Positions 40,466 to 43,595 of a stretch of 64,000 nucleotides of DNA are shown piece after piece. Position 1 is the first letter of the stretch, and each line of letters opens with the position of its first letter. The DNA comes from Yoonia tamlensis (GTDB lineage: Bacteria > Pseudomonadota > Alphaproteobacteria > Rhodobacterales > Rhodobacteraceae), in contig NZ_FOYP01000001.1 of the NCBI RefSeq assembly GCF_900115105.1, forward strand, positions 1,576,097-1,640,096, read 5' to 3'. The notes under the pieces were generated by a model. The model was not told the origin of the DNA, made no database searches, and saw nothing but the letters and a program-made list of their open reading frames with translations. The translations under genes were made by a program, and so were the position numbers.

Positions 40466-41137
40466 CTAGACAACCGACGGCGCATGAAGCGCAGCCACAG
40501 CCGCAGCACCGGTTGCCTTTGGCGCGGCGACTGCTGCAATCGGCTTTTGGCGACGGGGCTTGGCGGGCATGCTCATTGCGACATAGCGCCGTTGATCGTG
40601 GCAATTCACATAGGGATCGCCGATCAAATCCACCTCATAGCCAAGCTGGCGCAAGGTGCGCGCAAAAACCGGCGGGCAAAGTGCGATAATTTCGGTGCCG
40701 CCATGGGCCTTGGTTTGCGCCACCACCCCGTCCAGCACAAGCCCAAGACATTCGGACCGCTCGGCCTGTGTCGTGACCTCGTCTGAAATGACAACGCGGG
40801 TTGCTTCCCAGACGTTGGGCGTAACTGTCGCGACATTGATAATATCCTTGGGAATGCCAATCAATTTACCGGCAACCGCATCACCCAGCATATAGGTATG
40901 CGACCCCCATTGCGCCGTTGTGGACATGGCGCGCATGCCGCCGATCACCTTGCCGTCGCGCAAAACAAGCGAATAATGGGCGTTGGGATTGTCATATTGA
41001 TCCATCTCGACGTTATCGTCATGCGGGATATCCCAGCCAAGCTGGTCAACAAAAAACTGCTTGCGAAGTGCAAGGAACTCATAAAATGCGGTGCCGTGCT
41101 GATGCAGCTGGGCAAAACTAAACGAAATATTTTCCAT
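40466..41137 (-). CDS. luxI: Acyl-homoserine-lactone synthase, LuxI family
   Basis: A 223-residue autoinducer synthase that joins an acyl group from acyl-ACP to S-adenosylmethionine. The invariant residues are present: R25 and F29 (LRKQFFV), W35 (LGWD), D46 and D49 (EMDQYD), R69 (GGMR), E111 and R114 (VWEATR). After the usual end (about residue 190) there is a 30-residue basic and Ala-rich tail (KPRRQKPIAAVAAPKATG) not seen in LuxI itself. It lies 125 bases after luxR on the same strand, with a nested palindrome in between. The acyl chain cannot be predicted here. Confidence 0.94.
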   Translation of the reverse strand: MENISFSFAQLHQHGTAFYEFLALRKQFFVDQLGWDIPHDDNVEMDQYDNPNAHYSLVLRDGKVIGGMRAMSTTAQWGSHTYMLGDAVAGKLIGIPKDIINVATVTPNVWEATRVVISDEVTTQAERSECLGLVLDGVVAQTKAHGGTEIIALCPPVFARTLRQLGYEVDLIGDPYVNCHDQRRYVAMSMPAKPRRQKPIAAVAAPKATGAAAVAALHAPSVV

Positions 41138-41262: not shown

Positions 41263-41871
41263 CTAGATTAGCCCGTACTGGTTCGCAAGTGCCGCAGCCT
41301 GCGTGCCGGTTTTTGCACCCAGTTTCAATTTTGCGTTTTTCAGGCGTTGCTTCACCGCACCTTCGCTGACGCTCAACTCAAAGGCGATCTCCTTGAGCCG
41401 TTTACCATCCTTGACCATGCCCAATGCCTCCAGCTCGGCGCGGGTCAGATTGGTTGGCGGTGCGGTTTCATTGTGGCGCCGCACCAGCAAGGCTTTCAGC
41501 AATTTCATCTCAAGATCGGTATACTCGCGGTCGCTGCGGGTAAACGATGCAAACGAACGCTGCGCATCAACATTCCCGTCAAATACGGAAATTGTTACAC
41601 CGTAGGCCATGCCGAATGTCTTTGCCTGGGCAATGATGCGTTTGGGGTCGTCAATCGGGATTTCGCTCCAGCGGCATGTGCCTGTATTGCTATAGGCCCA
41701 CCGCACTGCCGGATCGAACAGCATAAACCTCTGGGTTGTATAATGTTGCACCCACTCTGGCGGAAATGCATTTACTTCCTCCATCGGAAAGGCAAAGCCG
41801 ATCCGCAGTGCAATATAATGTCCAGACGGCGCGAGCTGCTCGATTTCGTCTGGTCCCATCAGTGTCGACAT
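41263..41871 (-). CDS. luxR: LuxR-family autoinducer-responsive regulator
   Basis: A 202-residue regulator. The autoinducer-binding domain (about 10-140) keeps the usual ligand-pocket residues W40, Y44, D53, P54, W68 and G91. The C-terminal LuxR helix-turn-helix (about 143-202) shows LTRAELEALGMVKDGKRLKE, IAFELSVSEGAVKQRLKNAK. It is shorter than LuxR (~250) at the N-terminus. Located upstream of luxI on the same strand, it is the likely cognate receptor. Confidence 0.93.
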   Translation of the reverse strand: MSTLMGPDEIEQLAPSGHYIALRIGFAFPMEEVNAFPPEWVQHYTTQRFMLFDPAVRWAYSNTGTCRWSEIPIDDPKRIIAQAKTFGMAYGVTISVFDGNVDAQRSFASFTRSDREYTDLEMKLLKALLVRRHNETAPPTNLTRAELEALGMVKDGKRLKEIAFELSVSEGAVKQRLKNAKLKLGAKTGTQAAALANQYGLI

Positions 41872-41931
41872 TCTGATTCCTTAAGCCCCGATATTTTTAA
41901 GGCCTTGTTGTTAATCCACTGATATCTGTAC

Positions 41932-41975
41932 AATGCAAAAACGCGGTGCTTCGAACAGTAGTATTGCGAAAACGC
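41932..41975. repeat. Imperfect direct repeat in the luxR / AID-only divergent region
   Basis: AATGCAAAAACGC (41932-41944) and ATTGCGAAAACGC (41963-41975) match at 11 of 13 positions, 31 bases apart, about three helical turns. It lies 31 bases upstream of the plus-strand gene and 60 bases from the luxR start, so it could be a shared control site. Confidence 0.35.
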
Positions 41976-42006
41976 AGCCCATGGCAACCGGAAAGCGAGT
42001 AAAGCA

Positions 42007-42495
42007 ATGTCGCAAACACAATTCGAGATTAGCGAAGTCTTAGAACAGCTCAGCGAATGTGCACCCGCAGGTTATGCATTGGGTTTTCATATCGCGTTCA
42101 CAACGCCAAAATTTATGTTCCAATCCTATCCAAAAGCGTGGCTCGATTATTACTCACAAAATGGTCTTATTATGGCAGACCCGATGGTTGCATGGGGCTT
42201 TGAAAACACGGGCGCCTGCCGTTGGTCGGACCTCGACGATCCGGGTGGCGTGATGAAAAAAGCGGCCGAATTCGGCATGCCCTACGGCGTTGTTTACGCC
42301 ATCAAAGCCGACGATAGCCTTAGCATATGCGGCTTTGCGCGGGCGGATCGTGAATTCTCGGACAGCGAAATTGACGATATTTCGAACAAAATCAACTATC
42401 TCCACAAATCCACCGCGGATCAGGCGCGGCTTTCACCCGAAACCGTGCAAGAACTTAAGAACATGTCGATCCTGTTCACGCACCCGGGGTCCTAG
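42007..42495 (+). CDS. Autoinducer-binding-domain-only LuxR paralogue (no DNA-binding domain)
   Basis: A 162-residue protein that is an autoinducer-binding domain and nothing else. W45, Y49, D58, P59, W63, W73 and G94 match the ligand-pocket positions, and the stretch NTGACRWSDLDDP...FGMPYGV is close to NTGTCRWSEIPIDDP...FGMAYGV of the neighbouring LuxR, so the two are paralogues. It ends in ELKNMSILFTHPGS where a helix-turn-helix should begin; only 53 bases separate it from the next gene, so no hidden HTH remains. It could bind signal, or pair with LuxR and inhibit it, as truncated TraR-like TrlR does in Agrobacterium. That role is inference. Confidence 0.88.
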   Translation: MSQTQFEISEVLEQLSECAPAGYALGFHIAFTTPKFMFQSYPKAWLDYYSQNGLIMADPMVAWGFENTGACRWSDLDDPGGVMKKAAEFGMPYGVVYAIKADDSLSICGFARADREFSDSEIDDISNKINYLHKSTADQARLSPETVQELKNMSILFTHPGS

Positions 42496-42548
42496 GGGCG
42501 GCTTCTAACCTTTCGTTTACCCCAGCAGGCTAGATTGCGGGGATGAGC

Positions 42549-43595
42549 ATGCACTTTGACACATCTGATTCTCCGGCGCTTTCGCGTCGACGCAAGGCCG
42601 CAATGATTGTCCAGATGATGATCAGCGGCGGCAGCAACCTATCGTTGTCCCAACTGCCCGAATCGCTTCAGGAAGTGTTGACCGATGAACTGGGCGCAAT
42701 CAAACTTGTTGATCGTGATACAGTTGCCGGCGTCGCGGCAGAATTCACCGCACAGCTTGAATCCATCGGGCTTTGCGCACCTGGCACGCGCGACGGTGCC
42801 ATTGCCGCACTATCGGATCACCTAAGCCCTGATTTGGCCGCAAGGTTGCGCGCGCAAACCGCAAAAGTGCGCAATGGCGATCATTGGCATGTGATCGCGG
42901 ATCTTCCGACCGCGCGGCTTGTTGACATCATGACCCGCGAAAGCATCGAAATCTGCGCTGTTGCGCTGTCCAAGCTACAAGTCGGTAAAGCTGCAGAAAT
43001 CTTGACGCAAACACCTGGCGAACGCGCGCGCAGGATTACCTATGCAATGGCGCTAACGTCCGAAATATCCCCCGATACTGTGCACCGGATCGGGGCATCT
43101 TTGGCGAAAGAATACGGGCAACCCGCCAAAATCGCCTTTGAAAAACCGCCCGTGCAGCGCCTTGGTGCCATTTTGAATTCAACCGTCACCGATACCCGCG
43201 AAGACGTACTGGCATCACTTGGTGAAGCAGATCCCGCATTTGCCAACGACGTGCGCAAGGCCATTTTCACCTTCAAGGACATCGCGCCGCGGGTCAAACC
43301 GACCGATATTCCCAATTGTATCCGCGCAGTCGATGCAGAGGTGCTAACCCGCGCGATTGCCGCTGGACTTGCCGGTGAACAGGCAATGGTCGATTCCGCA
43401 GAATTTATTCTTGGCAGCCTGTCGCAGCGTATGGCCGGACAACTGCGTGAAGATGCCGAGGAAATGGGAACCATCAAAAAATCCGAGGCAGAGGCAGCTA
43501 TGTCCGCCATCACAACAGCCATCCGCGAAATGGCCGAAAGCGGGGTCATCACCCTGATCGATCCGGACGAGGAGGAGGAGGACAAAGACGAATAG
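42549..43595 (+). CDS. FliG-like protein outside a flagellar cluster
   Basis: About 348 residues with FliG middle and C-terminal domains. The middle part reads DLPTARLVDIMTRESIEICA, VALSKLQVGKAAEILTQTPG, where FliG has the EHPQ motif this has ESIE. The C-terminal part has LNSTVTDTREDVLASLGEAD, FKDIAPRVKPTDI and the conserved GQLREDAEEMGTIKKSEAEA. It ends in an acidic tail (DPDEEEEDKDE). ATG 42549 has GGGG eight bases upstream and is preferred to 42543. It follows the AID-only gene by 53 bases and is probably cotranscribed. Either a flagellar switch component or a relative with another role. Confidence 0.8.
   Translation: MHFDTSDSPALSRRRKAAMIVQMMISGGSNLSLSQLPESLQEVLTDELGAIKLVDRDTVAGVAAEFTAQLESIGLCAPGTRDGAIAALSDHLSPDLAARLRAQTAKVRNGDHWHVIADLPTARLVDIMTRESIEICAVALSKLQVGKAAEILTQTPGERARRITYAMALTSEISPDTVHRIGASLAKEYGQPAKIAFEKPPVQRLGAILNSTVTDTREDVLASLGEADPAFANDVRKAIFTFKDIAPRVKPTDIPNCIRAVDAEVLTRAIAAGLAGEQAMVDSAEFILGSLSQRMAGQLREDAEEMGTIKKSEAEAAMSAITTAIREMAESGVITLIDPDEEEEDKDE

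Follow-up and report, generated by a model that had tools for sequence, protein, structure and literature searches.

LuxI-LuxR loci of marine roseobacters are usually taken as AHL-activated switches. One such locus, located in a 64,000-nucleotide stretch of the Yoonia tamlensis genome (contig NZ_FOYP01000001.1, positions 1,576,097 to 1,640,096 of the forward strand; hereafter referred to as the window), carries back to back with its luxR a second luxR-like gene, which encodes an autoinducer-binding domain (AID) and no helix-turn-helix (HTH). What could a putative signal receptor deprived of its DNA-binding domain do beside a complete LuxI-LuxR pair, and is it an isolated remnant or part of an established regulatory design? 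We address these questions through the anatomy of the gene, the selection acting on it, its distribution among Rhodobacteraceae, its association with LuxR and LuxI, and its phylogenetic relation to characterized regulators.

Organization of the locus

The AID gene is a genuine open reading frame, divergent from luxR (Table 1). As a first-pass annotation of the sequence had proposed, its 162-residue product is an AID protein without HTH: Autoind_bind is the sole Pfam domain (residues 35-124, 55.2 bits) and the Pfam scan of this product found no GerE or other HTH domain. The pocket residues listed in that annotation (W45, Y49, D58, P59 and W73) are all present and, together with G94 at the sixth canonical pocket position (TraR G113), make up a complete WYDPWG pocket. 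Its description as a paralogue of the adjoining LuxR is equally sound, the two proteins sharing 31% identity over 143 aligned residues (E 2e-30). The LuxR displays both expected domains (Autoind_bind, 60.9 bits; GerE, 33.7 bits) and retains all six pocket residues. Among proteins of known structure, the best sequence relatives of the AID protein are RhlR and SdiA; its AlphaFold model (5 close sequences) is weak, with a pLDDT of 61, and its top PDB matches, RhlR, SdiA and LasR, are consistent with the identity of the protein while adding little to it.

Table 1. Features of the AID-LuxR-LuxI locus, with positions counted from the first nucleotide of the window
Feature	Coordinates	Strand	Basis
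HTH-less autoinducer-binding protein (CerN-type), 162 aa	42007..42495	+	ORF with ATG start; Pfam; clade with CerN
LuxR-type regulator (CerM-type), 202 aa, AID and GerE HTH; presumed partner	41263..41871	-	Pfam; CerM clade
luxI, AHL synthase, 223 aa; follows luxR, same direction	40466..41137	-	Pfam Autoind_synth, 62 bits
Divergent intergenic region, luxR to AID gene, 135 bp	41872..42006	.	Spacing of 52-169 bp at 48 other loci
Conserved leader motif GGCAACCGGAAAGCGAGT, 6 nt upstream of the AID start codon	41983..42000	+	Motif search
fliG; neighbour rather than core part	42543..43595	+	47 bp after the AID gene; no other FliG_C match in the genome

The motif search revealed no clear palindromic lux box in the divergent region and pointed instead to a leader motif near the AID start codon. 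The sequence CAACYNNAAAGCGARY has a single exact match in the whole genome, at the AID leader, and the motif GCAACCnnAAAGCGAGT, confined to this one site within the Y. tamlensis genome, lies 6-15 nt ahead of the AID start codon in more than half of 48 loci.

The gap of 53 bases initially reported between the AID gene and fliG holds for the second ATG of the latter (42549); the first in-frame ATG (42543) reduces it to 47 bp, and gaps of 44-49 bp are found in the closest relatives. The two genes are probably co-transcribed, which would plausibly fit the link of CerN to motility through CtrA. This arrangement with the only fliG of the genome, which is found beside the pair in some 20 related loci as well, speaks for the suggestion that the AID protein is a signal-controlled partner of the FliG encoded behind it. 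However, the gene is an ordinary, single-copy family fliG (found in 109 of 120 genomes), with FliF located on a different contig in Y. tamlensis, and many AID-LuxR loci have no fliG nearby. Moreover, a genome without quorum genes (locus L150) still has fliG between purB and htrB, so the purB-fliG neighbourhood in which the quorum genes are embedded is independent of them. As the pair is linked to fliG in only one genomic setting, a partnership with FliG is disfavoured as the core function of the AID protein and appears to us scarcely credible.

Purifying selection on the AID gene

Four Yoonia/Loktanella relatives encode proteins 75-80% identical to the AID protein and another, from the same genus, a protein 62% identical. 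The close relatives are equally HTH-less, none of them carrying an HTH-bearing version, and the truncation noticed in the window is therefore a conserved trait. Compared with these relatives, the gene shows a pN of 0.12 for a pS of 0.74, and its tail (residues 135-162) values of 0.13 and 0.78. Such ratios indicate, at the sequence level, that the AID gene is under purifying selection, in its body and in the tail replacing the HTH alike. It is consequently neither a chance ORF nor a decaying fragment, and a pseudogene is ruled out. In place of the HTH, the tail of most copies (42412-42492 in the window, residues 136-162) displays the conserved motif L(K/R)xMSIxFTHP, which may serve as a docking element.

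Distribution among Rhodobacteraceae

The family sample comprised 295 Rhodobacteraceae genomes, almost all of different genera. Some relative of the AID protein was found in 141 of them and, after inspection of the loci to tell complete LuxRs apart from HTH-less proteins (about 145-180 aa), an HTH-less gene was recognized in approximately 53 genomes, plus closer relatives of the window. The pocket, whose retention across orthologues is one of the points raised by the first-pass annotation, is strikingly constant in the 53 aligned copies: W45, Y49, D58 and P59 are invariant, W73 is kept in 52 of the 53, and only 11 columns reach 95% conservation, five of them corresponding to pocket residues. 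The genomic arrangement is hardly less stable, 49 of the copies being divergent from an adjacent LuxR with a spacing of 52-169 bp, three in tandem with it (L072, L076 and L078) and one without such a neighbour (L083). No HTH remnant was found in the 500 bp downstream of each of the 53 copies, and all are of similar length, which rules out a recent truncation. No such protein was retrieved outside Rhodobacteraceae in 289 genomes sampled across the class, where the single distant match is a 203-codon open frame. The missing output domain could still evoke a degenerate LuxR copy without function; purifying selection, a conserved pocket and tail, an occurrence in about 53 genera and a single origin leave next to no room for this explanation.

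Several variants were encountered during this inspection. The AID proteins of the three tandem loci have the pocket glycine (TraR G113) replaced by a tryptophan, and that of L072 additionally lacks the pocket tryptophan W85; an altered ligand is possible in these cases. On plasmid plas2 of Loktanella salsilacus (L102), an AID-LuxR pair occurs near transposases with no adjacent luxI, and the pair is probably mobile as a unit. Around 20 of the 45 luxI leaders of the clade (e.g. L046, L047, L054, L071 and L063, the window not being among them) contain a hairpin, ACTCTCC-ATAA-AGGAGAG, burying the Shine-Dalgarno sequence some 5 nt upstream of the luxI start and showing some paired changes between loci, which looks like translational control of luxI.

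Association of the AID gene with LuxR and luxI

An unbiased search was performed with the LuxR alone as query, without the AID protein, and gave 55 matches at a cut-off of 163 bits. An HTH-less gene is present in the locus for 51 of these 55 LuxRs, which is the unbiased pairing figure since selection of the lower-scoring loci in this clade relied in part on their AID gene. The four LuxRs without AID gene (L137, L139, L140 and L144) all lack an adjoining luxI too. In the LuxR tree, every luxI-adjacent LuxR of the partner clade has an AID gene in its locus (43 divergent and two slightly further, plus the window). The AID-LuxR pairing is near-obligate. Outside the partner clade, no AID gene was found beside luxI-linked LuxRs (0 of 27); these 203-aa proteins, which we presume to belong to the GtaR/LuxR1 type from their length and luxI-linked layout, differ from the window pair by this lack of an HTH-less partner. 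Pairwise distances of AID proteins and LuxRs correlate beyond those of LuxI (partial r 0.62), which is suggestive, phylogeny being incompletely removed.

The AID protein might alternatively be a sink or buffer, binding AHL and setting the quorum threshold while leaving LuxR untouched. That pocket residues rank among its best-conserved positions, and that the AID gene is absent only from loci that lack luxI as well, would agree with such a role. Nevertheless, a sink would have no need to stay by one LuxR clade in many genomic settings, and CerN has been shown to act through CerM, making this role very unlikely in our opinion.

The Y. tamlensis genome holds two further LuxR-type proteins besides the window LuxR, and these could be the real target of the AID protein. 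Contig C7 of this genome (approximately 2210575-2211904, locus L094) encodes, side by side, a second LuxI and another LuxR, a distant one, so that the AID protein may be open to cross-talk.

Orthology with CerN and CerM

In the AID-domain tree (129 columns, long-branch rows removed), the partner LuxRs constitute one clade (100/100) and the HTH-less proteins another (82/98), the bootstrap of the latter (82) being modest. The LuxR-only tree also recovers the partner clade (100*), and CerR-type and other distant LuxRs were left out of the trees because of long-branch artefacts. The window LuxR falls in the CerM clade in both (100/100 in the AID-domain tree, 100* in the LuxR-only tree). The HTH-less clade includes locus L084, whose gene order is AID gene, divergent from a LuxR followed by a second LuxR and LuxI. 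The genome bearing it matches plasmid pC of Cereibacter sphaeroides strain 2.4.1 at 100% over 2723 nt and contains the published CerM site once as an exact match, and the LuxR of L084 bears W57F, the pocket change reported for CerM. These four elements identify L084 as the cerN-cerM-cerR-cerI locus of C. sphaeroides and, given the shared clades, CerN and CerM are the orthologues of the window pair. The window AID protein and CerN share approximately 33% identity. The published CerM site, TATCCAAAAAGACAG, was not found in the Y. tamlensis genome with up to 1 mismatch, and the window LuxR thus need not share this site. The authors who described CerN left undecided whether it derives from an ancient duplication or from a fast-diverging copy (PMC11655674). 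Judging from the trees obtained here, we favour an ancient pair of single origin over a fast-diverging copy.

A probable AHL-dependent antagonist of the divergent LuxR

In C. sphaeroides, CerM is recovered in CerN pull-downs only when AHL is added, CerN and AHL together weaken CerM-DNA complexes in EMSA, the repression of a reporter by CerM in Escherichia coli is relieved by CerN and AHL, and motility suppressor genetics revealed that cerN and cerI mutants are rescued by the loss of cerM (PMC11655674). It follows from these experiments that CerM acts without AHL and that CerN-AHL removes it. With a probability of about three in four, we consider that the window AID protein is the CerN orthologue in function as in descent, i.e. 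an AHL receptor which, having lost the domain for DNA binding, acts as an AHL-dependent antagonist of the back-to-back LuxR, the CerM orthologue. From orthology and anatomy, we infer that the CerN/CerM mechanism carries over to the window, with AHL binding by the AID protein, an AID-LuxR heterodimer and an AHL-free activity of LuxR. At low cell density, LuxR would sit on its sites without AHL. As AHL made by the adjacent LuxI builds up, it would bind the AID protein, which would then pair with LuxR via the common AID dimer surface; such a complex, having at most one HTH, would take LuxR off DNA, and the LuxR targets would change state at quorum once LuxR has left.

An anti-activator role similar to that of TrlR had been put forward in the first-pass annotation. 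The AHL-dependent anti-LuxR part of this proposal is likely; the parallel with a recent TraR-like copy does not stand, the identity to the partner being 31% as against 88% in the published case. A brake of the TrlR kind, in which an AHL-activated LuxR is dampened by dead heterodimers with the AID protein and AHL, would be compatible with the same anatomy in TrlR (AID without HTH) and with a window LuxR whose six pocket residues make AHL binding plausible. On the other hand, CerM binds DNA without AHL and GtaR, related to CerM, is relieved by AHL (PMC11655674), so that an AHL-activated LuxR would require the sign to have changed inside the clade; in addition, TrlR arose recently as a copy of TraR, with which it shares 88% identity (PMC11655674), and the AID lineage is old. 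We regard this brake as rather unlikely, and the original view of a brake on the quorum circuit finds no support in the orthologous system, whose sign is the opposite: CerM works AHL-free and is released by CerN-AHL. The antagonism proposed here would probably mean that an AHL-free regulator is released at quorum, rather than that an AHL-activated one is braked. The main reservation concerns the LuxR pocket: where CerM carries W57F, the window LuxR has retained the tryptophan, so that it may bind AHL itself and could behave differently from CerM.

Comparison with known systems

TrlR, encoded by octopine-type Ti plasmids of Agrobacterium tumefaciens, is an AID-only protein that, in the presence of AHL, ties up a complete LuxR-type protein in inactive heterodimers, and constitutes an analogy in the way of working. 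As a recent truncated copy of TraR, it opposes an AHL-activated regulator, whereas the window AID belongs to an ancient lineage and its partner, unlike the target of TrlR, is probably active without AHL. GtaR of Rhodobacter capsulatus and LuxR1 of Dinoroseobacter shibae are short LuxRs placed in one orthogroup with CerM and CerN in the CerM/CerN paper (PMC11655674). The closest counterpart is CerN, which like the window AID has no HTH, shows the WYDPWG pocket and is encoded divergently from a short CerM-clade LuxR; the window pair differs in adjoining its own luxI directly, without an intervening CerR, and in its position at purB-fliG. It represents a further, well-supported case of the recently described CerN-type anti-LuxR proteins.

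The layout of the window corresponds to the "D topology" of luxRI loci (Cude and Buchan 2013, PMC3824088), defined by fliG upstream in the opposite direction and adenylosuccinate lyase downstream: purB, encoding this lyase, and divergent fliG flank the locus at opposite ends, and two luxR-like genes are present. The D-type genomes likewise have two luxR entries each in that article, whose cited portion neither mentions the absence of HTH in the second "luxR" nor proposes a function for it. Tentatively, and at somewhat less than even odds, the pair could reflect an ancient family-wide split design, with the HTH-less protein as principal AHL receptor and the divergent LuxR as an AHL-independent regulator that the former strips off DNA at quorum; in D-type loci, the pair would then be the luxI-attached quorum circuit, annotated as two luxR genes. 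If the HTH-less partner is the actual AHL-dependent switch, quorum predictions for these genera carry the wrong sign. The D topology and the CerN/CerM mechanism of C. sphaeroides were already known; the present analysis adds that the pair appears old, of single origin and widespread in Rhodobacteraceae, and that it is the luxI-linked circuit of the D-topology roseobacters.
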